Source: Streptomyces sp. B1I3 (GTDB lineage: Bacteria > Actinomycetota > Actinomycetes > Streptomycetales > Streptomycetaceae). Taken from it: a stretch of 64,000 nucleotides of DNA. The stretch lies in the NCBI RefSeq assembly GCF_030816615.1, contig NZ_JAUSYD010000001.1, positions 6,346,501 to 6,410,500 of the forward strand. The letters are read 5' to 3'. The translations under genes and the position numbers were made by a program. Positions within the stretch are counted from its first letter, which is position 1. Every line of letters begins with the position of its first letter. Below the pieces are notes generated by a model. It ran no database searches. It was not told where the DNA came from and saw only the letters and a program-made list of their open reading frames with translations. Below, in pieces: positions 6,304 to 18,646 of this stretch.

Positions 6304-7956
6304 TCAGCGCGCGACGTCCGGGCCCCAGTACGGACCGTCCGCCTCCCGCACCCGGCCGTCCTCCTCCACCACCACGAAGCGGTCGAAGGTGCGGGCGAAC
6401 CAGCGGTCGTGCGTGACCGCGAGGACCGTGCCCTCGAAGCGTTCCAGGGCGGATTCCAGGGCCTCGGCGCTGTGCAGGTCGAGGTTGTCGGTCGGCTCGT
6501 CCAGCAGGAGCAGCGTGGAGCCCTGGAGTTCCAGCAGGAGGATCTGGAACCGCGCCTGCTGGCCGCCCGACAGCTGGTCGAAGCGCTGGTCCCCGTGTGC
6601 CTGGAGCTCGTACCGGCGCAGGACCGAGACGGCTGCCCCCCGGTCCCGCCCCTCCCGGTCGCCGTCACCCCGGCCCAGTACCTCCACCAGCGTGCGGCCC
6701 GCCAGGTCGGGCCGCGCCTGGGTCTGTGCGAACCAGCCCGGCCGCACCCGCGCGCCCAGCCTGGCCACCCCGGTGTGGCCGACCGGTTCGCCGTGGCGTG
6801 CCGGATCGTGCAGATCCTGCTCGCTCCCGCCGGCCGCGAGCAGCCGCAGCAGGTGCGACTTGCCCGTACCGTTCGAACCGAGTACGGCCACCCGCTCGCC
6901 GAAGTAGACCTCCAGGTCGAACGGCTTCGTGAGCCCGGAGAGTTCGAGCGCCTCGCAGCGGACGGCCCGTACGCCGGTGCGGCTCCCGCGCAGCCTCATG
7001 CGGACGTTCTGCTCGACCGGCCGCTCCGGCGGCGGGCCGGCCTCCTCGAACCGGGCGAGCCGCGTCTGCATGGCGCGGTACTTCCCGGCCATCGAGGCGG
7101 AGGCCTTGGCCTGCTGCTGGAGCGTGCGGACCAGGTTCTTGAGCCGCTGGTGCTCCTCGTCCCAGCGCCGGTGCAGCTCGTCCAGACGTTCGAGACGGGA
7201 CTGCCTCGCGGTGTAGTAGTCCCGGAATCCGCCGCCGTGCACCCAGACGCCGTTCGCCTCCAGGGTGAGGACGCGGGTGGCGGTGGCCGCCAGCAGTTCG
7301 CGGTCGTGGCTGATGTAGAGCACGGTCTTGCGGGACGCGGCCATCATCTCCTCGAGGTGGCGCTTGCCCGGTACGTCGAGGTAGTTGTCCGGCTCGTCCA
7401 GCAGCAGCACCTGGGCGTTGCCGCGGAACAGCGCCTCGAGCGCGAGACGCTTCTGCTCGCCGCCGGACAGGGTCCGCAACTCCCTGGACCTGGCCCGTTC
7501 GAAAGGGAGCCGCAGCGCCGCCCCGGTGACCAGGTCCCATTCCACCTCGGCGTCGTAACCACCGGTCTCCGCCCATTGCGAGAGCGCTTCCGCATAGCGC
7601 ATCTGCACGGCTTCGCTCTCGCTCTCCAGCATGGCCAATTCTGCGCTCTCCATGGCCGAAAATGCCTGTTTCAATTCCGGCCTGGACAGTGAGACGAGAA
7701 ATTCGAGCACGGTGGTCGCGTCGCGCACGGAGCCGACGAACTGGGGCATGACCCCGAGCCCGCCCACCGTGCGCACCGTCCCGGAATGAGCCTTCAACTC
7801 GCCTGTGATCAGGCGGAACAGCGTGGTCTTCCCCATTCCGTTGGCTCCGATGAGAGCGACCTTGTCGCCGTCACCGACACGGAAGGAAGTGTCATGAAAA
7901 AGCATCCGGCCATCCGCCAGCCAGTACTCCAGACCGGAAACTTCCAAGAACCCCAC
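6304..7956 (-). CDS. ABC-F ATPase, probable ribosome-protection (self-resistance) protein
   Basis: A 550-residue soluble protein with two ABC ATPase domains and no membrane segment, as in ABC-F proteins that act on the ribosome. Domain 1 has Walker A GANGMGKTT, signature LSGGEQKR and Walker B LLLDEPDNYLD. Domain 2 has GSNGTGKSH, LSGGQQAR and LLLDEPTDNLD. Between them is the charged two-helix linker (about 240-320: RLERLDELHRRWDEEHQRLKN and on) that reaches toward the peptidyl-transferase or exit-tunnel region in resistance ABC-Fs. It starts at GTG 7956 with GAGGGG upstream. It is divergent from a RiPP-like cluster, so it may protect the producer from the cluster's product. A housekeeping role is possible but less suggested by the location. 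Confidence 0.88.
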   Translation of the reverse strand: MGFLEVSGLEYWLADGRMLFHDTSFRVGDGDKVALIGANGMGKTTLFRLITGELKAHSGTVRTVGGLGVMPQFVGSVRDATTVLEFLVSLSRPELKQAFSAMESAELAMLESESEAVQMRYAEALSQWAETGGYDAEVEWDLVTGAALRLPFERARSRELRTLSGGEQKRLALEALFRGNAQVLLLDEPDNYLDVPGKRHLEEMMAASRKTVLYISHDRELLAATATRVLTLEANGVWVHGGGFRDYYTARQSRLERLDELHRRWDEEHQRLKNLVRTLQQQAKASASMAGKYRAMQTRLARFEEAGPPPERPVEQNVRMRLRGSRTGVRAVRCEALELSGLTKPFDLEVYFGERVAVLGSNGTGKSHLLRLLAAGGSEQDLHDPARHGEPVGHTGVARLGARVRPGWFAQTQARPDLAGRTLVEVLGRGDGDREGRDRGAAVSVLRRYELQAHGDQRFDQLSGGQQARFQILLLELQGSTLLLLDEPTDNLDLHSAEALESALERFEGTVLAVTHDRWFARTFDRFVVVEEDGRVREADGPYWGPDVAR

Positions 7957-8158
7957 GGCTTTTCACCCCTCGATCGCGTTTAACGTCCCTCCGGACTCTT
8001 CAATCTCTCATGCCTTCTTGTTTTGTTTCCGGGCCTTGTGCAAGCATCCCGTCATCCGGTCACCGGACATCACGCTCGGTGACCGGGGGTCCAGGGCGCA
8101 CCCAAGGGGTGAGAGCTCCGTCCCGGTGTGCCCGTCCACTCACACGAGGGGAACCACC
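7957..8158. promoter_or_regulatory. Divergent promoter region, ABC-F / RiPP precursor
   Basis: This 202-base divergent gap is clearly less GC-rich than its surroundings (for example tcttcaatctctcatgcc and ttcttgttttgtttcc), as expected for promoters. Both flanking genes have good ribosome-binding sites inside it (GAGGGG before GTG 7956 and before ATG 8159). I could not place -10/-35 boxes with confidence. A perfect inverted repeat lies at 8056-8086. Confidence 0.55.
8056..8086. promoter_or_regulatory. Perfect 10-bp inverted repeat in the precursor leader
   Basis: CCGGTCACCG (8056-8065) and CGGTGACCGG (8077-8086) are exact reverse complements separated by 11 bases, ending 72 bases before the precursor start. 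It may be an operator for an unseen regulator or, if transcribed, a hairpin that stabilises or attenuates the precursor mRNA. It has no U-tract, so a simple terminator is less likely. Confidence 0.6.
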
Positions 8159-8311
8159 ATGGAATCCAACGCCCAGCGTCCGGTGAACGAGGAGACCCCC
8201 GAGCTGCGCCAGCAGGACGGCGACACCTCGGGTCCGGAGCTCGAGACCGACGGTCTGGTCTTCAAGCGCGAGCTGCTCAACGAGTTCCTCGGCGGACGCG
8301 TCCGCAGCTGA
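8159..8311 (+). CDS. Putative RiPP precursor peptide, 50 residues
   Basis: A short gene starting at ATG 8159 with ACGAGGGGAA ideally placed upstream. It encodes 50 residues: an acidic, Gln/Glu/Pro-rich first 32, then an amphipathic helix-like stretch (F35-K-R-E-L-L-N-E-F-L44), then G45-G46 and R-V-R-S. The hydrophobic residues at -12 (Phe35), -7 (Leu40) and -4 (Phe43) before the double Gly match the spacing of double-glycine leader peptides. The implied core is only four residues. There is no Cys, Tyr, Trp or His, which excludes lanthionine, thiazole and biaryl chemistry. It is followed by modification genes, all on the same strand. The precursor role is inferred from size, leader motif and context; no homologue was recognised. 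Confidence 0.72.
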   Translation: MESNAQRPVNEETPELRQQDGDTSGPELETDGLVFKRELLNEFLGGRVRS

Positions 8312-8414
8312 CCGAAGCGCCACCGGGCTCCGGCAGACGCAGGGCCGGGGCCCGGTGGTGTGCGACATCGGGCCGACGAGGCGGAACGAAGGTGCCGACA
8401 CGGAGCGGGGGGCG

Positions 8415-9956
8415 GTGGTCGACGTGCGGACGGACGAGACCGGCGAGGGGAAGCGCGGCCCCCGCCCGTTCACCGTGGACATCGACGCCTGGCCGCTCAG
8501 TCTGGACCCGTACCACGTCGTGGACTTCAACCAGGCGCTCGTCCTCGACGCGCTCGTCGACCCACTCACCCGCGAGGACCCGCTCGACCCGGGGGTCGCG
8601 CTGCCCTCGGCCCTGAGCTCGCTCGACCCCCTGGACGACGGACGGACCTGGCTGCTGCGCCCGGCGCCCGGTCAGATCTGGGACGACGGCACACCCGTCC
8701 GCCCCCAGGAGATCGCGGCCGGGATCCACCGGGCCTGGGGCCCCACCGGGCTCGTGCTGCCCGACGGGTACGCCACCCACGACAGCGGTCCGGGCGGCGG
8801 CGCCCGGTCGCCGGTCACCGCACGCGTCGTCGCCGGCGACGGCGGAGCCGTCACCGGGCGCACGGTGATCGAGGTGCGGTCCTCCCTGGCGCTGCCCTAC
8901 CTCGCCGGGCTCCTGGCGTTCCCGGGCGCGGCCCCCGTGCGGGAGGAGGGACACGGCTGGACGGCCAGCGGGCCCTACCGCCCGGTGAGCGCCGACCGCC
9001 GGCTGGGCAGGATCGAGCTGCGCCGCAAACCGTCCCGCAGGACCGGCCCCGGGACACCCGCAACCGTCGTCTTCCAGGTGCACCGCGAACGCGCGCGGGC
9101 ACTCGCCGCGTTCGACGAAGGACTGCTCGACCTCTCGCTCAACACCGGTCTGCCGCCGGCGGACTTCGGCCGGCTCGCAGCCCTGCCGCACGCGACGGTA
9201 CGCACCCTGTCCATGGCCTGTCAGCTGTGGGTGCGCCCCGGCACCGACTCCGTCCTGGACACCGCTGCCGGACGGCGCGCGTTCGGCGACGGCTTCGACC
9301 GGGAGGCGGTCTCCGCCCGGCTGCAGCGGGCCGTGGTGCCGTTGCACCGGTACAGCGGGCTGTGGGACACGCACCGGCCGGCCCCTGGGATGCCCGACAT
9401 CGCGACGCCGCCGCCCCGCCGGCTTCCGCCGTCCGGCCGCCGCGCGGAACTGACCCTCACCTACGCGGACTTCCCGCCCAACGACCGGGTCGTCGCGGCC
9501 CTCGCCGCCGACATCGAAGCCCGCCTCGGCCATCGTGTCCATCCGCGCCCCCTGACCTACCGCGCGTTCGCGAAGGCCGTCACAGCCCTCGACTACGAAC
9601 TGCTGTACTGCATCAATCCGGCGCCCCTGGCGCACGTGGCCGGCTACCTCACCCAGTTCCACAGCGCCGCGGCCACCGGCAGAGCGCTCGGGCTGCGTGA
9701 CGCGGAAGTGGACGCGGCCCTCGACCGCGCCCTGCGCACGCCGGGGGCCGAGGCCTCCGCCCGGGCCTGGCAGCAGGCCGAGGCGGCCGTCCTGAGCCGG
9801 GCCCCCGTGGTGCCGCTCTTCCAGGTCAACAGCGTCACCCTGCACCGGCCCGGCTCCCCGCCACCCGCGGTGGCCGCCACCGGAGCCATCGACCTGGACC
9901 GTGCCGCCGGCCCCGCCGCGCCCCACACCCACGACCGGAAGGTCCTCTCCGCATGA
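8415..9956 (+). CDS. Family-5 solute-binding-fold protein, no signal peptide, in RiPP cluster
   Basis: About 513 residues with the SBP_bac_5 (peptide/nickel-binding) fold. Supporting segments are the N-terminal SLDPYHVVDFNQALVLDALVDPLTRED, the characteristic WLLRPAPGQIWDDGTPVRPQEIAAGIHRAW, a central ASGPYRPV segment, and a C-terminal lobe. No Sec or Tat signal and no lipobox Cys are seen, so it is probably cytoplasmic, unlike transport partners, and no ABC permease gene is nearby. GTG 8415 is preferred (GGAG nine bases upstream); GTG 8355 is an alternative. It overlaps the next gene by ATGA. It may bind the peptide intermediate or precursor, which is inference. It could instead be a periplasmic binder with a missed export signal, but the N-terminus does not look so. 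Confidence 0.72.
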   Translation: MVDVRTDETGEGKRGPRPFTVDIDAWPLSLDPYHVVDFNQALVLDALVDPLTREDPLDPGVALPSALSSLDPLDDGRTWLLRPAPGQIWDDGTPVRPQEIAAGIHRAWGPTGLVLPDGYATHDSGPGGGARSPVTARVVAGDGGAVTGRTVIEVRSSLALPYLAGLLAFPGAAPVREEGHGWTASGPYRPVSADRRLGRIELRRKPSRRTGPGTPATVVFQVHRERARALAAFDEGLLDLSLNTGLPPADFGRLAALPHATVRTLSMACQLWVRPGTDSVLDTAAGRRAFGDGFDREAVSARLQRAVVPLHRYSGLWDTHRPAPGMPDIATPPPRRLPPSGRRAELTLTYADFPPNDRVVAALAADIEARLGHRVHPRPLTYRAFAKAVTALDYELLYCINPAPLAHVAGYLTQFHSAAATGRALGLRDAEVDAALDRALRTPGAEASARAWQQAEAAVLSRAPVVPLFQVNSVTLHRPGSPPPAVAATGAIDLDRAAGPAAPHTHDRKVLSA

Positions 9957-10708
9957 CGAACACGACCACGGGCAGGGCCCATGCCTACCGGGCGGCGGAC
10001 CGGACCCCGCCGGAACTGGCCGCCCTCGGCGCCCTCCTGCGCCGCGACCCCGCCCGCCCGGTCCACCTCGACGGATTCCTGCCCGCCGAGCGGGCGGACC
10101 GCCTGGGCGATGCGGTCCGCGCGCTCCCCCGATGGGCGTCGTCGGCCGTGGTGTGGACCGAGGACCGGAGCTCCACCGTCAAGGTCACCCCGCAGGAGTG
10201 GCGGGCCGCGGAACCCGGCCGGCGGGCCGCGATCCGTGACGTCGCCCAGGACATCCCCGCCCTGTTCGACGGGGACTTCACCTACCCGGCCGCGTACCGG
10301 GAGGAGCTCTCCGACTTCTTCGTCTTCGCCGGCATGGGGCCCGTCCTGCGCACCCGGCTCGCCCGGTGGGTGGCACCGGACGGCCCGATCACCACCAACG
10401 TCGAATTCGCCCGCTACGGCCGGGACGACCAGCTCGGCGAGCACTCCGACGCGGAGTCCGACACCCTCTTCGTCCTCAACCTCTACCTCGATCCCGGATT
10501 CCGGGAGGCGGACGGCGGCGTACTCGGGTTCCGCAACGAGGCGGGGGAGGAGTTCCGCATGCCGCCCCGCTTCAACAGCGTCTCCGTGGTGCCGATCCGG
10601 CCGGGATGCGTGCACTGGGTCGAACGGTGGCGGACCGGACGCATCGGCCGGCACACCGTCAGCATCGCCGTGACCCCGGCCCCCACGACGAACGCCGAGG
10701 TGAAGTGA
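9953..10708 (+). CDS. 2OG-Fe(II) oxygenase (prolyl-4-hydroxylase-like fold), first of two
   Basis: A 251-residue protein with a double-stranded beta-helix dioxygenase core. The facial triad is visible as His164-x-Asp166 (EHSDAESDTLFVLNLYLD) and His221 (PGCVHWVERW), with Arg233 or a nearby Arg as the 2-oxoglutarate anchor (GRIGRHTVSIAV). Before the distal His is the segment RFNSVSVVPIRPGCVHWV, shared with the second oxygenase at 12749, so the two are paralogues with limited identity. It probably hydroxylates, or otherwise oxidises, a residue of the precursor peptide. It overlaps the upstream gene by four bases (ATGA), and the radical SAM gene starts two bases after its stop. This implies translational coupling. 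The substrate is inferred. Confidence 0.85.
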   Translation: MTNTTTGRAHAYRAADRTPPELAALGALLRRDPARPVHLDGFLPAERADRLGDAVRALPRWASSAVVWTEDRSSTVKVTPQEWRAAEPGRRAAIRDVAQDIPALFDGDFTYPAAYREELSDFFVFAGMGPVLRTRLARWVAPDGPITTNVEFARYGRDDQLGEHSDAESDTLFVLNLYLDPGFREADGGVLGFRNEAGEEFRMPPRFNSVSVVPIRPGCVHWVERWRTGRIGRHTVSIAVTPAPTTNAEVK

Positions 10709-10710
10709 CC

Positions 10711-12702
10711 ATGGCAGTAAGTGCTGGGAACGCTCCCGGGACGAAGAGCGCGGGGACCTCCACGAGCGGCGCGGACGGTGCGCGGTCCGTGGTGCTCGCC
10801 TTCCCGCCGCTCGTCGAGTCCAGCTTCGGCCGCTACTTCCCCTCCGTCGCCGCACTCGCCGGATACCTGGACAGCCGCGGGGTCACCACGCGGCAGTGGG
10901 ACCTCAACGAGGAGTTCGCCCTGCACCTCCTCGAACCGGCCCACCTGCAGGCGGCCGGCGAGGGCAGGCTCACCGGCCTCGAGGACCACTCACCGGAGGC
11001 GATGAGCGCGGTCGCCGGGCGTTGGCTCGCCGGTCACCGCGACACGCTCTTCGACGACGAGGGCCGTCACGCCTTCGCCGCCTCGGCCGGTCCCGCCTAC
11101 CTGCTCTCCGCCCTCGCACAGCCCTACCTCATCGATCCGGAACCGCAGTGGCTCGGCGACGCCGCGCTCCTGCGGTCCGCGCCCACGCTCGTCTACCGCA
11201 CCTACTACGCCCGCCTCGGCCTGGCCTCCCGCATTCCCGCGGACGCCTGCCTCATCGGCATCTCCGTCCCCATGGGACCGCAGCTGGTTCCGGCGCTCCT
11301 GCTGGCCGAGGCCGTCAAGGAGGTCCGCCCCGACGTACGCGTCGTGCTCGGCGGGCCCACGCTGTCGCTCATGCAGGAGGAGGACCTCACCACTCTGCTC
11401 GCCACCCACCGGCAGGTGGACGCGGTCGTCAGGTTCGACGGCGAGACGCCGCTCGCCGCCCTGTGCTCCCACGCACGCGAGGGCGGCTGGCGTCCCGGCG
11501 AGGTGGCGGGAGTGTCCTCCTGGTCGGGGCAGGGCGTCACGCACGTACCGCCCGGTCCCGGCCTGCACCCCAACGTGCTGCCGCCCGCGGCGTACGACCA
11601 CGAGCTCCTCGGCAGGCTCGTCGCCCCCGAGATCGGCATCTCCCAGGCGCGCGGCTGCTACTGGGGCAAGTGCGACTACTGCGACTTCGTCGAGCTCTAC
11701 GACGGCAGCCCGCCCTACCGCGGACGCTCGGTGAAGACCTTCATGGCCGAGCTGGAGCACCAGGTCCGCTCGCACGGCGCCCGCCACTTCGAGCTGATCA
11801 CGGAGTCCATCCCGCCCGCGTTCGCCCGGCGCTTCTCCCAGGCGGTCATCGACCGAGGGCTGGACATCGTCTGGAACTCCTTCGCCATGGTCGACCGGCG
11901 CTTCGACGCCGAACTCCTGCAGCTCATGGCCAGGGCCGGGTGCGAGTACCTCGTCATCGGCATGGAGACCACCAACACCCGCGTGCTGAACCTCGTCCAC
12001 AAGTCGGCCGACCGCGAGGAGAACCTGCGCTTCATCCGCGAGGCGCACAGCGCGGGGATGAAACTGCGGATCAACCTCATTCCCGACCTGCCCTCCACCA
12101 CCCGCGAGGAAGCTCTGGAGTCGCTCCGGGACGTCGCCGAACTCGCCGATCTCGTCGACTCGTTCACCGTGTTCCCCTTCGAGGCGACCCGGTCGTCCGA
12201 AGTCGGCCGCAACCCCGAGCGCTTCGGGCTGGTGATCGCCGACTCCGGCACGGGCACCGCCAACCAGGCGCAGTACGCCCTCAACCACCTGGGCAACATC
12301 GATCCGGCGATGACCGACGAACAGCGCCGCGGTGTCCACGAGGTGTACCAGGACTTCGCCGTCCAGCACGGCTCCGGTTACATGCGGGTGACCGGCTCGG
12401 ACTTCCTCGGGCGCCTCCCTGCCCCGGACGAGCCGTTCCGCCTCGGCACCGAGTACCTGGACGTCCTGCGGCGCGGGGAGGCACTGGTCGTCACCCACGT
12501 GCTGCGCCGCGAACGCACGGTCCTGCCCGCCGCCGTCGCCACCGGACTGACCCGCTGGCTGGACGGATCACCGCTGACCCGTCAGGACCTCGCCCACTCC
12601 TACGGGGACGACGGGGCGCGACGGGTCGTCGAGCAACTGGTCGACGCCCGGATGCTGATGACGGCCGCCGGGGCCGTCGACAACGAACCCGCCGTCGTGT
12701 GA
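10711..12702 (+). CDS. B12-binding radical SAM enzyme, RiPP-maturation type
   Basis: A 663-residue protein. Residues about 25-290 form an N-terminal cobalamin-binding-like domain (VVLAFPPLVESSFGRYFPSV; VRVVLGGPTLS; DAVVRFDGETPL). The radical SAM barrel begins at GISQARGC, with cluster cysteines Cys316, Cys321 and Cys324 in a CX4CX2C spacing instead of the textbook CX3CX2C. Further conserved parts are the GMETTN and RINLIPDLP segments. The last 80 residues (THVLRRERTVLPAAVATGLTRW ...) look like a winged-helix, PqqD/RRE-like domain. B12 radical SAM enzymes of this layout usually C-methylate unactivated carbons of peptide residues, and a few form rings. A Val or Arg of the core would be a natural target; this is inference. 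It is in a coupled operon. Confidence 0.88.
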   Translation: MAVSAGNAPGTKSAGTSTSGADGARSVVLAFPPLVESSFGRYFPSVAALAGYLDSRGVTTRQWDLNEEFALHLLEPAHLQAAGEGRLTGLEDHSPEAMSAVAGRWLAGHRDTLFDDEGRHAFAASAGPAYLLSALAQPYLIDPEPQWLGDAALLRSAPTLVYRTYYARLGLASRIPADACLIGISVPMGPQLVPALLLAEAVKEVRPDVRVVLGGPTLSLMQEEDLTTLLATHRQVDAVVRFDGETPLAALCSHAREGGWRPGEVAGVSSWSGQGVTHVPPGPGLHPNVLPPAAYDHELLGRLVAPEIGISQARGCYWGKCDYCDFVELYDGSPPYRGRSVKTFMAELEHQVRSHGARHFELITESIPPAFARRFSQAVIDRGLDIVWNSFAMVDRRFDAELLQLMARAGCEYLVIGMETTNTRVLNLVHKSADREENLRFIREAHSAGMKLRINLIPDLPSTTREEALESLRDVAELADLVDSFTVFPFEATRSSEVGRNPERFGLVIADSGTGTANQAQYALNHLGNIDPAMTDEQRRGVHEVYQDFAVQHGSGYMRVTGSDFLGRLPAPDEPFRLGTEYLDVLRRGEALVVTHVLRRERTVLPAAVATGLTRWLDGSPLTRQDLAHSYGDDGARRVVEQLVDARMLMTAAGAVDNEPAVV

Positions 12703-12748: not shown

Positions 12749-13498
12749 ATGCGCAGTACCACCGAGCAGCCGACGCACCCGGAGCTCGCCGCGGCAGTGC
12801 CGTTCATCGCCCCCGAGTACCTGACCGGCGACTTCTTCGCCAGGATGGGTGACTGGTACCACGGCGACGAACCCCACCCCCTGCACCTGCACAACTTCCT
12901 GCGGCCCGAGCTCGCGGCCGCGGTGTCCACGGCCGTGCGCGGCATCCCCGACTGGTCACCGCACGCAGCGCTCTACGAAGGCCGCATGGGCAAGACGGAG
13001 TTCTGGGACGAGGAGGCGGACGCCGGCCACGAGGTCACCATCAGCCAGCTCGCCGTACGGGACATTCCCGCACTGCTCGACAGCGGGGCCATGGACCCCG
13101 CCCACCAGCAGGTCATCGAGCAGTTCCTCGCCTTCGCCCTGCTGTCCGACACACTCCGCGACTGGATCAAGGCCGGCACCGGTCTGGAACTGCGCAAGCG
13201 GGCCTTCATGGAGATCGCCGCCTACCGCCGCTCCGACGGGCTCGGCGCACACCAGGACCTGGTCCCCGGCCGGGTGCTGGCGATGAACTTCTACCTCGAC
13301 GAGAACTACCGCGCCGAGCACGGCGGCCGGCTCAGCTTCCGTGACGGCGAAGGCCGTGAGCACCACATCGAGCCCGTCTACAACAGCCTCTCCATCATTC
13401 CGATCCGCGAGGACTGCTGGCACTGGGTCGAGCCCTTCAGCAGCGACACGGTCGGCCGGTACACCATCGCCATCGGGCAGCATCTGGAGGGGAGCTGA
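12749..13498 (+). CDS. 2OG-Fe(II) oxygenase, second of two
   Basis: A 249-residue paralogue of the oxygenase at 9953. The iron triad is His168-x-Asp170 (GAHQDLVPGRVLAMNFYLDENY) and His225 (REDCWHWVEPF), with Arg237 as the likely 2-oxoglutarate ligand (GRYTIAIG). It shares the EPVYNSLSIIPIRE segment with its paralogue, but the N-terminal 90 residues differ, so the two probably act at different positions of the peptide. It starts at ATG 12749 with GAGGAGAA upstream, 46 bases after the radical SAM stop. The presence of two oxygenases points to at least two oxidative steps. The substrate is unproven. Confidence 0.85.
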   Translation: MRSTTEQPTHPELAAAVPFIAPEYLTGDFFARMGDWYHGDEPHPLHLHNFLRPELAAAVSTAVRGIPDWSPHAALYEGRMGKTEFWDEEADAGHEVTISQLAVRDIPALLDSGAMDPAHQQVIEQFLAFALLSDTLRDWIKAGTGLELRKRAFMEIAAYRRSDGLGAHQDLVPGRVLAMNFYLDENYRAEHGGRLSFRDGEGREHHIEPVYNSLSIIPIREDCWHWVEPFSSDTVGRYTIAIGQHLEGS

Positions 13499-13524: not shown

Positions 13525-14526
13525 GTGGCGGTCCATGAGACCGAGTGCGAGACGCTCCTGAACCTCGGTGACCGGCTGCTGCGCGTCGGCGGCCCCCAGC
13601 CGCGGGTCCGCGCGGCACTGGACCGGCTGCGCACGGGAACCACGCAGGACCGGCTGGCCGCGGACTGGGCCCCCGGTGCGGTCGCGGCGCTGCTCGCCGA
13701 ACTCCGCGACCAGGGCTGGCTCACCGGGGAGAGCGAAGAGGAACGTGCCGCCTTCGCCGGGGAGACGTACGAGCGCCAGGTCGACCACCTGGCACTCTTC
13801 GGCCCCGACACGGCCGCCGCGCAGCGCCGGCTGCTCGGGTCCCGGGTCGCCGTCATCGGCCTGGGAGGCATCGGCGGCATCGTCACCCAGCACCTGGTGG
13901 GAGCGGGCGTCAGCCGGTTCTGGCTCGTCGACGACGACTGCGTGGCCGGCCACAACCTCAACCGCCAGTTCACGTACGGGTCACAGGACATCGGCAGTCC
14001 CAAGACCCGGGCGCTCGCCCGCAGTCTGTCCGCCCTGCGGCCCGGCATCCGCACCACCGGCGTACGGAAGCGGATCACGGAGGCCGCCCAGCTCTTCGAC
14101 GAGCTCCCCGGCGACCTGGACCTGGTGATCGTGGCCGCGGACACCCCGCCGGGTCTCCCGGACGTCGTGTGGGAGTGGGCCGTGGCCACGGGCACCCCCA
14201 CGGCCGTCGCGGCTGTCGGTGTCGGCATCGGCTTCTGGGGCCCCGTCCTCGTGCCCGCCCGCGACGGCTGCTGGCCGTGCTTCGAGCGCGGCCGGCGAGC
14301 CGTCCTCACGGGACTGGAACGAACCGTCGAGGACCGATCCGCCGAACCTGCCCCCTTCTCCTTCGGTCCGAGCAATACAGTGATCGCCGCGATGCTCGCC
14401 CATGACGTCGTGGAGTTCCTGTGCAGCGGATCGTGCCCCACCCTGGGCCGCCGTGCCGCGCTGGACTTCCGGCGCCAACGGATCACCCACAGCGAAGAAA
14501 TGAAGTGCTCGTGTCCGACGACCTGA
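13525..14526 (+). CDS. RRE plus E1/ThiF-type adenylating enzyme, MccB-like
   Basis: At least 333 residues. The N-terminal 80 look like a winged-helix peptide-recognition (RRE) domain, as in MccB and the ThiF-like partners of azoline synthetases. Residues 107-300 form the ThiF/E1 fold: nucleotide loop GLGGIGG (112-118), acidic DDD at 136-138, N-x-x-R-type NLNRQ at 144-148, Lys160, and cysteines CWPC (249-252) with a C-terminal CSC (328-330), probably the structural zinc site. Such enzymes adenylate a peptide carboxylate or side chain. No YcaO partner exists here, favouring MccB-like chemistry. GTG 13525 is the first standard start, but family-like sequence (TLRLLPAV) continues in frame upstream, so a CTG near 13507 or 13495 may be the true start. 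Confidence 0.82.
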   Translation: MAVHETECETLLNLGDRLLRVGGPQPRVRAALDRLRTGTTQDRLAADWAPGAVAALLAELRDQGWLTGESEEERAAFAGETYERQVDHLALFGPDTAAAQRRLLGSRVAVIGLGGIGGIVTQHLVGAGVSRFWLVDDDCVAGHNLNRQFTYGSQDIGSPKTRALARSLSALRPGIRTTGVRKRITEAAQLFDELPGDLDLVIVAADTPPGLPDVVWEWAVATGTPTAVAAVGVGIGFWGPVLVPARDGCWPCFERGRRAVLTGLERTVEDRSAEPAPFSFGPSNTVIAAMLAHDVVEFLCSGSCPTLGRRAALDFRRQRITHSEEMKCSCPTT

Positions 14527-15902
14527 TAACGCAGCAGAAGCAGAAGGCGGCGGGCCGCAGGAAGGAGTCGTTCAGGGGCACCGGCTTCCTGCGCCTGTGG
14601 TCGGGCGAGACGGTGTCCGTGGCGGGCACCGAAGTCACCTTCATGGCGATCGGGATCGCCGCGGCGACCACCCTCGCCGCGACGCCCTGGCAGATGGGTG
14701 TGCTGGAGGCCGCGGAGTCCGCCGCGGTCCTGCTGCTCGGCCTGTCCGCGGGCGTGTGGGCGGACCGCTACGAGCGGCGCCGCATCATGCTCATCGCCAA
14801 CCTGGCACGCTGCGTACTGATCCTCTCCGTCCCGCTGCTGTACTGGCTGGACGCACTGACCATGCCCGTGCTGTACGCGGTCGTCTTCCTCGTCGGTGCC
14901 CTGACGCTGCTCTTCGACAGCGCGATGTCGGCCTATCTGCCACGGCTGTTGCCCCGCAGCCAACTGGAACGCGCCAACTCCTGGATGGAAGCCAGCACGT
15001 CGGTGGGCTCGGTCGCCGGACCGGGACTCGCCGGAGTGCTCATCCAGGTCATGAGCGCCCCGGTGGCCCTGGTCGTCGACTCCGTCTCCTACCTGGTCAG
15101 TTACCTCACCCTGTCGCGGCTGCCCCAGGCCCCGCCGTCCGCCGACCCGGGGACCCCGGACGCGGAGCCGCAGGAATCGCACCGGCACGCCGTCCTCAAG
15201 GGCCTGCACCTGCTGCGCGTCGACCGCATCCAGCGGCCGATGATCCTCGCCGCCGCGCACTTCAACATCTTCCACACGATGTTCTTCGCCGTGCACACGC
15301 TCTTCGTGTTGCGTGTACTCGACTTCAGCCCCGGCCTCCTCGGCGCCACCAGCATGGCGGGAGGTGTCGCAGGACTCCTCGGCGCGTCCTTCACGCCGGC
15401 GCTCACCCGTCTTTTCGGCCAGGGCCGCACCCTGATCATCGTCTACGCCGCCCCGGGCCTCTCGGCCCTCCTGGTCCCGCTGGCCCACCACACGGGCGAC
15501 CGGGGCCTCGCCATCGCCCTGGTCTCGCTGTCGACCTTCACGTGGACGTTCGCCGTGGTGGTCAATCTCGTCATCAGCGAGACGGTGAAGCAGACCCTGG
15601 TCCCCGACCACCTCCTGGGCCGGGTCACCGCCACCACACGCTTCGTCAGCTGGGGGGTCCAGCCGGTCGGCGCGCTGCTCGGCGGCTGGCTCGGCGGACG
15701 GCTGGGGCTCTCGGAGGTCATGGTCGTCTCGGCGGCCGGCCTGTTCACGTCCGCGCTCTGGCCGCTCCTCAGCCCGGTACGCAATCTGGTCGGACCGCCT
15801 GACGACGACACGGACGGCGGCGTGACGGACGGCGACGGCGGGGACGTCGACGGCGCGAGCGGCGCGACGAGCGAGCCGTCGCCGCCGCCCGAGAAGACCT
15901 GA
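14511..15902 (+). CDS. MFS transporter, probable exporter of the RiPP product
   Basis: About 463 residues with 12 predicted membrane helices. It carries the MFS loop between helices 2 and 3 (GVWADRYERRRIMLIAN) and the enterobactin-exporter-like subgroup features common in Streptomyces biosynthetic clusters (SYLPRLLPRSQLERANSWMEASTSVGSVAGPGLAG). The C-terminus is a soluble Asp/Ser-rich tail of about 40 residues. GTG 14511 is used (GTG 14505 is possible); the gene overlaps the E1 gene by 16 bases, so it is translationally coupled. It probably exports the mature peptide. The substrate is inferred from operon position only. Confidence 0.85.
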   Translation: MSDDLITQQKQKAAGRRKESFRGTGFLRLWSGETVSVAGTEVTFMAIGIAAATTLAATPWQMGVLEAAESAAVLLLGLSAGVWADRYERRRIMLIANLARCVLILSVPLLYWLDALTMPVLYAVVFLVGALTLLFDSAMSAYLPRLLPRSQLERANSWMEASTSVGSVAGPGLAGVLIQVMSAPVALVVDSVSYLVSYLTLSRLPQAPPSADPGTPDAEPQESHRHAVLKGLHLLRVDRIQRPMILAAAHFNIFHTMFFAVHTLFVLRVLDFSPGLLGATSMAGGVAGLLGASFTPALTRLFGQGRTLIIVYAAPGLSALLVPLAHHTGDRGLAIALVSLSTFTWTFAVVVNLVISETVKQTLVPDHLLGRVTATTRFVSWGVQPVGALLGGWLGGRLGLSEVMVVSAAGLFTSALWPLLSPVRNLVGPPDDDTDGGVTDGDGGDVDGASGATSEPSPPPEKT

Positions 15903-15950: not shown

Positions 15951-17261
15951 ATGCCCGCGCTCAATCCGATCGGCCGCACCTTGTCCAACGGCCTGCGGGT
16001 GATCGTCTCCAGGGACACCACGGTCCCCGTCGCCGCGGTGTGCCTGTGGTACCGGGTGGGATCGTGTGACGAGCCCGCCGGCCGGACAGGTCTCTCCCAC
16101 CTGTTCGAACACCTGATGTTCCAGGGATCGACGCACGTCCCGGCCAACGGCCACACCGCCGCCGTGGAGGAGGCGGGCGGTCTGACCAACGCCTCCAGCG
16201 GCTTCGAACGCACCACTTTCTACACGGTCGTCCCCGCCGGCCAGCTGGAACTGGTGCTGTGGCTGGAGGCCGACCGGATGGGAGGCATGCTCGACGCCTT
16301 CACGCCCGAGGGCCTCGGCAACCAGCGGGACGTCGTGCTCAACGAGCGGCGGGAGCGGTACGACAACGTGCCCTACGGCACCGGATGGGAGCAGCTGGTC
16401 GCCATGACGTTCCCTCCCGGTCACCCCTTCCGCGAGTTGCCGGCAGGCAGCCCCCGGGACCTGGCCGCCGTCACGGAGGACGACTGCCGGGCGTTCTTCC
16501 GCCGGCACTACGCCCCCGACCGGGCGATCCTCACGGTCGTCGGCGACGTGGAACCGGACGCGGTGGTGGATCTCGCGGAACGCCACTTCCGTCACATAGC
16601 GCCCTCCGCCTCCGGCCGCTGGGCACCCCCGGCGTGCTCGCGCACCCCCGCGCTCCCGGCCGAGACCCGGCGCCACGCCGAGGCGGCGGTGCCCGGTCCG
16701 GCGTTCATGGCCGCCTACCAGCTGCCCGCCCGTGGTGGACGTGCCTACGCCGCCACGGACCTCGCTCTGACGCTGCTGGGGGGGATGAGCAGCAGCGGAC
16801 TGCACGACCGGCTCGTGCGGCGGGACCAGCTCGCCCACAGCGCCCGCTTCTCCCTGTTGCCCCTGCGGTCGGCACCCTCCCTGGGCCGGCTGGACGTGCG
16901 CGCCGTGCCCGGCACCGGCCTCGACGTCGTGGAGAAGGTGGTCGACGAGGAGATCGAGCGCCTCGTCGACCACGGGGTCGCCGACGCGTCGCTGCGGGGG
17001 GCCAAGGCCCAGATCCGGCGCGAGTGGTACGACCGCCTCGCCCATCCGGGCAGCCGGGCCGACGAACTGTGCGCCCAGGAGGCTCACTTCGGCGACGCGG
17101 CGCTGGCCGACGCCCATCTCGGTGAGGCCTTGGACATCTCCGCGGCCGAGGTGCGGCAGGCCGCGGCCGACTGGCTCGCCCCCGAACGGCGCTCGGTCCT
17201 GACCTATGAACCCGCGGGTGCCACGGACCCGGCCCGAGCCGCGCGAGGAGCCGCCGCATGA
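15951..17261 (+). CDS. M16B zinc peptidase, catalytic subunit
   Basis: A 436-residue protein of the half-size (M16B) insulinase family. The inverted zinc motif HXXEH is at His50-Leu-Phe-Glu53-His54 (GLSHLFEHLMFQG), and the third zinc ligand is a Glu near 133-136 (VVLNERRE). No signal peptide. It begins at ATG 15951 with AGGAGCAGAAG upstream and overlaps the second M16 gene by ATGA. M16B enzymes work as two-subunit chambers, with one subunit supplying zinc and the other an Arg/Tyr pair; the next gene supplies that partner. It is the obvious candidate for leader removal. M16 pairs have this role in other RiPP pathways, but cleavage after Gly46 here is a guess. Confidence 0.9.
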   Translation: MPALNPIGRTLSNGLRVIVSRDTTVPVAAVCLWYRVGSCDEPAGRTGLSHLFEHLMFQGSTHVPANGHTAAVEEAGGLTNASSGFERTTFYTVVPAGQLELVLWLEADRMGGMLDAFTPEGLGNQRDVVLNERRERYDNVPYGTGWEQLVAMTFPPGHPFRELPAGSPRDLAAVTEDDCRAFFRRHYAPDRAILTVVGDVEPDAVVDLAERHFRHIAPSASGRWAPPACSRTPALPAETRRHAEAAVPGPAFMAAYQLPARGGRAYAATDLALTLLGGMSSSGLHDRLVRRDQLAHSARFSLLPLRSAPSLGRLDVRAVPGTGLDVVEKVVDEEIERLVDHGVADASLRGAKAQIRREWYDRLAHPGSRADELCAQEAHFGDAALADAHLGEALDISAAEVRQAAADWLAPERRSVLTYEPAGATDPARAARGAAA

Positions 17262-18646
17262 CCGCCCCCGCCACCACCGGCCCGCGCCCCGCCCGTCCTG
17301 CCACGGCGCCCGTCCGGCCGTGGCACTTCCCCCGGCTGCACAGGAGCGTCCTGGACAACGGCCTCACGCTGCTGACCTGCGACCGGCCGGGTCAGGAAGT
17401 GCTGAGCGCCGAGATCATCGTCGCCGTGCCGCTCGCTCTCGAACCACGCGAGCTGGAGGGCGTCGTGGGCATCACGGCCAGCGCCCTGGCCGAGGGCGTA
17501 CCGGGACTGGACTCGCTCGACTTCATCCACGCGCTGGAACACTGCGGAGCCACCCTCGGCGTCGGCGCCGAGCACACCGGCCTCCGGATCACCCTCGACG
17601 TCCCCGGTACCCATCTGGAGGAAGCGCTGGGCCTGCTCACCTCGGCTCTGCGCACCCCCCTGTTCCCCGCTCGATCCGTCGAACGCCTGGTCGGAGCACG
17701 CGCGAACGCGTACGTCCGCAACCGGGCCGACGCCGAGCGCCGCGCGTCCATGGAACTGCACACCGCCCTGTTCGACGCGGCGGACCGCCGTTCGCGGCCG
17801 GCCCGCGGCACCGACGTGACGGTCCGCGGGATCGACCGGGACGCGGTCGCCGCCTTCCACCACCGCTTCGTCCGCCCGGCCGTCTCCACCGTCGCGCTCG
17901 CGGGCGACCTGGCCAGGTACGACGTCGACGCCGTGCTGCGCCGCGTGCTGGGCACGTGGGAGGGCGAGCCGGGCACCCTTGAGGCACCCCCGTCCCCGCC
18001 GGTGCGCGACGAGGCGCCGGTGATCCTCGTCGACCGGCCAGGGGCCCTCCAGACCCGGCTGGTCCTCGGGCGGGTCGCACCGGGCCGTGCCACGCCCGAC
18101 TGGGACGCGCTGCTGATCGGCAACCACAGCCTCGGCGGCTCGGTCAACGCACGGCTCGACCGTGAACTACGCGAGGCCAAGGGCTACACGTACGGGTTCC
18201 ACAGCCGCCTGCTGGGTGTGGTCCAGGACTCCCTCGCCGTCGTGACGGGGGCGGTGGAGACATCGGTGACGGCGCCCGCGCTGAACGACATCACCCGCAT
18301 CCTGACCGAGGTCGCCGACCGCGGGATCACGGAGGCGGAGCGCGCGGCCGCGGTGGCGCAGATCGTGGACGCGGCGCCGCTGCGCTACCTCACCGCGTCG
18401 GCGGTCGCGGAGGAGATGGCCCTGCTGGTCCTCGACGGCCGGGACCCCGCGAGCCTGCCGGACGCCTTCCGGCGCGCGGCGGCGATCACCACCGAGGAGG
18501 CCTCCGGCGCCCTGCGTTCAGCCTTCCCTCCGGACGGCATGGTGACGGTCGCGATCGGCGACGTCTCGGTGTTCGGTGAGGAACTCCGGGGGAACGCCAC
18601 GGCTCCGGTGCACCTCCTGCGAACGGGGTCCTCACGGCTCCCGTAG
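17258..18646 (+). CDS. M16B peptidase-like subunit without zinc motif
   Basis: A 462-residue M16-fold protein lacking HXXEH: the equivalent region reads LEPRELEGVVGITASALAEG. It keeps the C-terminal substrate-binding Arg/Tyr region (LDRELREAKGYTYGFHSRL), as expected for the non-catalytic partner of a heterodimeric M16B protease. An N-terminal 25-residue Pro/Ala-rich extension precedes the fold. It is coupled to the catalytic subunit by an ATGA overlap, so equal amounts are made. It is the last clear gene of the RiPP-like operon; after 63 bases comes soxR, probably an independent unit. Confidence 0.88.
   Translation: MTAPATTGPRPARPATAPVRPWHFPRLHRSVLDNGLTLLTCDRPGQEVLSAEIIVAVPLALEPRELEGVVGITASALAEGVPGLDSLDFIHALEHCGATLGVGAEHTGLRITLDVPGTHLEEALGLLTSALRTPLFPARSVERLVGARANAYVRNRADAERRASMELHTALFDAADRRSRPARGTDVTVRGIDRDAVAAFHHRFVRPAVSTVALAGDLARYDVDAVLRRVLGTWEGEPGTLEAPPSPPVRDEAPVILVDRPGALQTRLVLGRVAPGRATPDWDALLIGNHSLGGSVNARLDRELREAKGYTYGFHSRLLGVVQDSLAVVTGAVETSVTAPALNDITRILTEVADRGITEAERAAAVAQIVDAAPLRYLTASAVAEEMALLVLDGRDPASLPDAFRRAAAITTEEASGALRSAFPPDGMVTVAIGDVSVFGEELRGNATAPVHLLRTGSSRLP

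Follow-up and report, generated by a model that had tools for sequence, protein, structure and literature searches.

A cluster-borne ABC-F protein of Streptomyces sp. B1I3 is a probable self-resistance factor for a putative ribosome-targeting RiPP

We found that an ABC-F gene in the genome of Streptomyces sp. B1I3 (a single contig of 7.5 Mb) belongs to a RiPP cluster, an assignment that is well supported by conserved linkage. The encoded protein is probably the cluster's own self-resistance factor, acting by ribosome protection in the manner of other ABC-Fs, and would match a peptide product bound at the peptidyl transferase center (PTC). Judged from its sequence, the protein is most likely a short-linker ribosome-protection factor; the product and its target are inferred. 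Self-resistance genes of the ABC-F type are a sign of antibiotics that act on the ribosome, and the one studied here flags a RiPP family for which we found no description: no paper joining these cluster genes turned up in the open-license PMC literature. ABC-F self-resistance in producers is known; what appears to be new is the use of this subfamily by a ThiF/B12-radical SAM RiPP cluster. If the assignment is true, it would link an ABC-F that nearly all Streptomyces genomes encode to protection from PTC inhibitors. The features of the window, by which we mean the whole 64,000-nucleotide stretch that was analyzed, are collected in Table 1.

Table 1. Positions of the ABC-F gene and of the adjoining RiPP cluster in the window
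Feature	Position	Strand	Remarks
ABC-F ATPase, proposed ribosome-protection/self-resistance factor	6304..7956	-	550 aa, GTG start, intact
Interdomain linker hairpin, residues 247-306	7039..7218	-	AlphaFold2 helices 247-285 and 287-306
Linker tip, residues 284-288 (K-A-S-A-S)	7093-7107	-	tip signature particular to RiPP-linked copies
Divergent spacer, ABC-F gene/precursor gene	7957..8158		202 bases
RiPP precursor, 50 aa, C-terminus ...LVFKRELLNEFLGGRVRS	8159..8311	+	ATG at 8159; conservation
OppA/DppA-fold peptide-binding-protein-like factor (SBP_bac_5-like)	8424..9956	+	start codon uncertain, 8355-8424
2OG-Fe(II) oxygenase 1	9953..10708	+	HxD motif; Pfam score slightly below cut-off
B12-binding radical SAM enzyme, RiPP C-methyltransferase-like	10711..12702	+	rSAM_ocin_1 match under cut-off
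2OG-Fe(II) oxygenase 2	12749..13498	+	Pfam
ThiF/E1-like adenylating enzyme	13525..14526	+	invariant ATP-site motifs
MFS exporter	14421..15902	+	profile matches
M16 peptidase a	15951..17261	+	HLFEH
M16-family peptidase b	17258..18646	+	matches inactive-domain Pfam model only; HALEH string present

The ABC-F protein is a two-cassette single chain, with Walker A, the ABC signature, and Walker B with its catalytic Glu present in both ATPase sites, and Pfam ABC_tran matches it twice. No 19-residue span reached a Kyte-Doolittle mean of 1.6; the MFS pump encoded in the cluster has 47 such spans. Motifs, Pfam matches and hydropathy scan thus agree with the preliminary description, which had predicted two ATPase domains and no membrane part. 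The 202-base divergent region that it had placed between this gene and the precursor gene is also there. The interval that it gave, 6304-8158, covers the reading frame (6304-7956, minus strand) together with the spacer. In the AlphaFold2 model (mean pLDDT, 89), a helical hairpin connects the two ATPase domains. The top PDB match in a fold search was ribosome-bound PoxtA (7p7q), followed by EttA, YbiT, and Uup; the predicted hairpin and these matches to ribosome-bound ABC-F folds are those of a helical interdomain linker (ARD/PtIM). Plasmid relatives of the protein were found in 7 records, at 53-61% identity.

On the other side of the spacer lie a short conserved precursor, tailoring enzymes, a peptidase, and an exporter, the composition of a RiPP cluster. 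The precursor is real, since tblastn detected it at 60-80% identity and at the equivalent position in three other clusters. Its description as "Arg-rich" was loose: the feature that all members keep is an Arg-[Ser/Thr/Cys] C-terminus, found in 12/12 precursors, 3 of which were retrieved with this ending as a filter but nevertheless have the leader motif in common. As a control, 18 of the 462 small open reading frames of the window have the same ending. An antipain-like reading of the Arg-Val-Arg string in the core was dropped because the other precursors end in KHRS, VNRC, HNRS, VHRS, or VHRC. The peptide with this Arg-Ser/Thr/Cys ending is most likely a ribosome inhibitor.

The ATP-site motifs of the ThiF/E1-like enzyme (GxGGxG, NxNRQ, and GxxK) are invariant across a 13-row alignment, as in MccB-like adenylating enzymes. 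The cysteine motif of the radical SAM enzyme (residues 316-324, C-YWGK-C-DY-C) reads CX4CX2C; the usual spacing is CX3CX2C. The SBP-like protein, present in 12/13 clusters (the exception being the truncated SPB074), was modeled with the OppA/DppA peptide-binding fold (pLDDT, 80), and neither a signal peptide nor a membrane segment was detected in it. It therefore probably resides in the cytosol and holds the peptide there. A search for plasmid relatives of this protein gave none. In the 202-base spacer we found no conserved upstream open reading frame (uORF), attenuator, or terminator, and attenuator or uORF control was dropped for that reason. The spacer does hold an imperfect inverted repeat (ccggtcaccg...cggtgaccgg, window 8055-8085), a possible operator, which is not conserved in three related spacers. 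A SoxR gene follows the cluster on the right, and TetR-like and dehydratase-like genes (named by eye) lie to the left; none of these flanking genes had a homologue in any of the seven related loci with which they were compared.

The assignment of the ABC-F gene to the cluster comes from comparison across genomes. When 295 Streptomyces genomes were searched with the 13-row ThiF alignment, 31 gave matches at an E value of ≤1e-40; ten of these reached 2e-105 or better and stood clearly apart from the next, at 3e-57. In 8 of these 10 genomes, which have the cluster ThiF, a family ABC-F lay no more than 7 kb away from it, so that its membership in the cluster, conditional in the preliminary description, is well supported. 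A naive estimate puts this linkage at 7e-20 by chance, under an assumption of independence that is violated because the clusters are related. The radical SAM protein occurs in 8/295 genomes. With three further named loci that contain ThiF and the SBP (sp. 8L, a Corynebacteriales MAG, and NRRL S-118), a family ABC-F adjoins 9/13 clusters; SPB074 is counted as a miss, and L026 and L027, which have a related radical SAM gene and no ThiF, are excluded. As for the clusters where ABC-F is missing, SPB074 is truncated on the 5' side (we did not find the precursor, the SBP, or a portion of the first oxygenase), transposase-like genes named by eye flank G159 on both sides, and the sp. 8L contig stops inside the MFS gene. 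No such excuse was identified for NRRL S-118.

The position of the ABC-F gene varies, with at least three gene orders across the linked clusters. In the window type it diverges from the precursor gene, whereas in the MAG (L024) it lies downstream of MFS; in G246 and G037, opposite ThiF, it adjoins an oxygenase-MFS pair. No radical SAM homologue was found in the 18-kb stretches of the latter two genomes. These loci (L124:3700-12500 and L127:4300-12100, respectively) are radical SAM-less variants of the RiPP cluster with precursors ending in VMVHRC, and L127 additionally contains a SAM methyltransferase-like gene. Among 396 genomes sampled across the phylum, the only match to the cluster ThiF was the B1I3 genome itself. 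A separate ThiF-like family, with 324-aa frames matching at an E value of about 1e-55, is present in four Streptomyces genomes (L142-L145).

The preliminary description had asked whether the protein would group with resistance or with housekeeping ABC-Fs. A member of its family is encoded in 286/295 Streptomyces genomes. Of five core-type genomes examined gene by gene, four have the core copy flanked by rpoA-rplQ-truA and rplM-rpsI-glmM (the G002 copy is elsewhere); because such copies adjoin the rplQ-truA and rplM-rpsI genes, we regard this as a core, ribosome-linked locus. In an 82-row tree, 47 rows form a core clade with starred support of 100. The label "core" refers to rplM, rpsI, or truA in the locus, which holds for 27 of the 47; the other 20 have no such marker in the stretch, and some are second copies elsewhere in a genome. 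The window copy and the cluster copies of Root1304, cahuitamycinicus, and ISL-43 form one clade (starred, 100), and those of G002, G232, G246, and G037 form another group with the same support. When the linker tip was masked, the clade of the window copy was again apart from the core clade. The B1I3 genome carries both kinds, 3 Mb apart and 64% identical (core copy, G000:C1:3296167-3297759). Mean identity between the cluster copy and core copies is 64%, compared with 86% among core copies. Thus, the window ABC-F is an additional, separate lineage of an actinobacterial family that is near-universal in Streptomyces. The concern that it might be a housekeeping protein is therefore half borne out, since the family is near-universal and the cluster lineage is separate.

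Core and window copies are alike in linker and arm length and share 60-66% identity. The window copy has a GRGxGxRxG insert within its second ATPase domain and is without the PAGSD-type insert of the core copy, and the two also differ at the linker tip. A Lys or Arg at position 284 (numbering of the window protein) together with no Asp or Glu at positions 287-288 occurs in 9/9 RiPP-linked copies and in 0/53 other family members, 51 of which have the acid and no basic residue and 2 of which have both. This pattern is post hoc, spotted after the sequences were inspected. With the tip masked, a single clade of all RiPP-linked ABC-Fs was rejected (p-AU, 0.02, for a group named only after the first tree had been viewed), which implies either two separate changes at the tip or a loss in other copies. 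The pattern amounts to two independent contrasts in the same direction (sign test, p = 0.5), and with only two it cannot reach significance. The signature covers only two independent lineages. The difference between core and cluster copies at this tip is small and testable.

Actinobacterial ABC-Fs have been divided into AAF subfamilies, AAF1-6 (PMC6723617, in part). The producer ABC-Fs of the ARE4 group (TlrC, CarA, OleB, and SrmB) resemble the window protein in coming from antibiotic-producing Streptomyces and in having two ATPase domains and no membrane part. However, identity is only about 29-35%, a very long branch separates the two, and the window linker is about 21 residues shorter (a segment of 89 aa in the window ABC-F and core copies, versus 110-115 in four ARE4-type rows). 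The TlrC/CarA/OleB/SrmB-kind producer proteins (15 rows of the tree) lie far from the window copy. Membership in ARE4 was rejected: the protein falls outside that clade and scores 207.6 bits against NCBIfam NF000171, for which the cut-off is 800. The idea of a classical producer-type ABC-F was thus not upheld. The ribosomal-protection model NF000355 gave 268.7 bits, under its cut-off of 380, yet the best of 186 matches. By description, the closest functional analogue is Ard1 (AAF1), a narrow-spectrum self-resistance ABC-F of the producer of the nucleoside antibiotic A201A, reported to be a relative of ARE4/ARE5 (PMC10201436). Short-linker factors such as PoxtA are reported in the same paper to perturb the CCA end of the P-tRNA, and not the PTC itself. 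PoxtA, the best fold match, is like the window protein in its short linker; PoxtA and OptrA differ in conferring phenicol-oxazolidinone resistance in Firmicutes and in sharing about 22% identity.

Members of the ABC-F family also accompany nucleoside antibiotic clusters. A search for BlsE in the 295 genomes gave 11 positives, and a family ABC-F stood beside the cluster in 5 of them. In G018 (L123), G257 (L125, where the ABC-F frame is broken), and G060 (L126), it adjoins arginine 2,3-aminomutase, the cytosylglucuronate decarboxylase BlsE, and CGA synthase; one protein of each kind was scanned, scoring 642 bits (cut-off, 600), 640 (400), and 501 (300), respectively. The BlsE-linked ABC-Fs of G192 (L179) and G063 (L180) belong to the core clade, and no arginine aminomutase was found in those stretches. 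In the stretches read from the other 6 of the 11 genomes, one of which is a 6-kb contig, there was no family ABC-F. The blasticidin-type copies share a starred branch (100/98) with the RiPP copies of G002, G232, G246, and G037. The PTC is the binding site of blasticidin S, which distorts the CCA end of the P-tRNA (PMC8287960). No other observation speaks as strongly for an ability of the family to protect against PTC inhibitors as this association with nucleoside clusters, and the presence of the family in 5/11 cytosylglucuronate (blasticidin-type) clusters makes a ribosome-targeting product the best reading here.

In the mechanism that we propose, the ATP-bound ABC-F would move into the E site of the ribosome, where the hairpin of its short linker would press on the acceptor/CCA end of the P-site tRNA, as reported for PoxtA and OptrA, with no deep reach into the tunnel. 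This action would release a product bound at the PTC. The product is probably the extreme C-terminus of the precursor, a few residues long (...Arg-[Ser/Thr/Cys]) and modified by C-methylation and hydroxylation; the E1 enzyme would activate it at the carboxylate, the M16 pair would release it, and the MFS pump would export it. Several observations stand against self-resistance: the linker is as short as that of core copies, and housekeeping ABC-Fs also have short ones; the protein scores under every curated NCBIfam resistance cut-off; an ABC-F was missing from 4/13 RiPP clusters and from the stretches read of 6/11 BlsE-positive genomes; four non-core family copies have no recognized antibiotic cluster nearby; two RiPP genomes showed no core copy; and the tip pattern is post hoc, with two independent contrasts. 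A wider proposal, which we put forward tentatively and consider doubtful as a whole, is that an undescribed RiPP class with an Arg-[Ser/Thr/Cys] end and an E1-activated carboxylate inhibits the P-site side of the PTC as blasticidin S does, and that actinomycetes repeatedly recruited core ABC-F copies as matching self-resistance, the linker tip having been retuned for this peptide on two occasions (to basic, with loss of the acid).

Other explanations of the ABC-F gene were weighed against self-resistance. It could be a housekeeping translation factor that sits beside the cluster by chance, as its occurrence in 286/295 genomes, with a core copy by rplM-rpsI, might suggest. In the whole genomes of G232 and G037 we found no core-type copy, only cluster or non-core copies, so the cluster copy could do the core job there. 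But B1I3 has its separate core copy, at 64% rather than 86% identity, and linkage in 9/13 clusters with differing gene orders is hard to square with accident; linkage and tree together largely refute a chance neighbor, and we regard it as quite improbable. It is unlikely, too, that the protein is chiefly a regulator that detects ribosome-bound antibiotic and tunes expression of the cluster, with protection secondary. Such roles are reported for LmrC and for S. coelicolor ARE5 proteins such as Are5sc (PMC8546547 and PMC12421871), and a gene divergent from the precursor operon would suit coupled control. Yet the spacer holds no conserved uORF, attenuator, or terminator, the ABC-F of L024 is downstream of MFS and not divergent from the precursor, and the family occurs in nucleoside clusters as well.

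A product of the microcin C kind, in which a peptidyl adenylate hits an aminoacyl-tRNA synthetase and the ABC-F does no more than relieve downstream ribosome stalling, seems very unlikely to us. The E1-like enzyme does have the intact ATP site of microcin C-type systems, but the precursors end in Arg-[Ser/Thr/Cys] and not in Asn, and no aminoacyl-tRNA synthetase copy was seen among the scanned cluster proteins. We know of no ABC-F that protects synthetase targets. Little credence goes to an immunity made up of sequestration by the SBP-like protein plus the MFS pump, with the ABC-F resisting a different, environmental antibiotic. The peptide-binding fold, the lack of a detected signal or membrane segment, and the presence in 12/13 clusters fit it. 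However, a maturation role is equally likely for that protein, and the specific ABC-F linkage and the tip signature would be left unexplained. Among the ThiF-like RiPPs (microcin C, pantocin A, enterofaecin, and IndA), an E1-like enzyme likewise acts on a small precursor, and IndP, like the window-cluster peptidases, is an M16 protease; the combination of B12-radical SAM enzyme, two oxygenases, SBP-like factor, and ABC-F is not described in the excerpts of PMC12250964 and PMC12150305 that cover them.

Elsewhere in the ABC-F family, L119-L122 (G094, G186, G115, and G037) hold a separate non-core lineage, with a TetR-like gene adjoining in L120 and L122. There is no recognized antibiotic cluster near these four loci, and the lineage is a candidate for intrinsic resistance.
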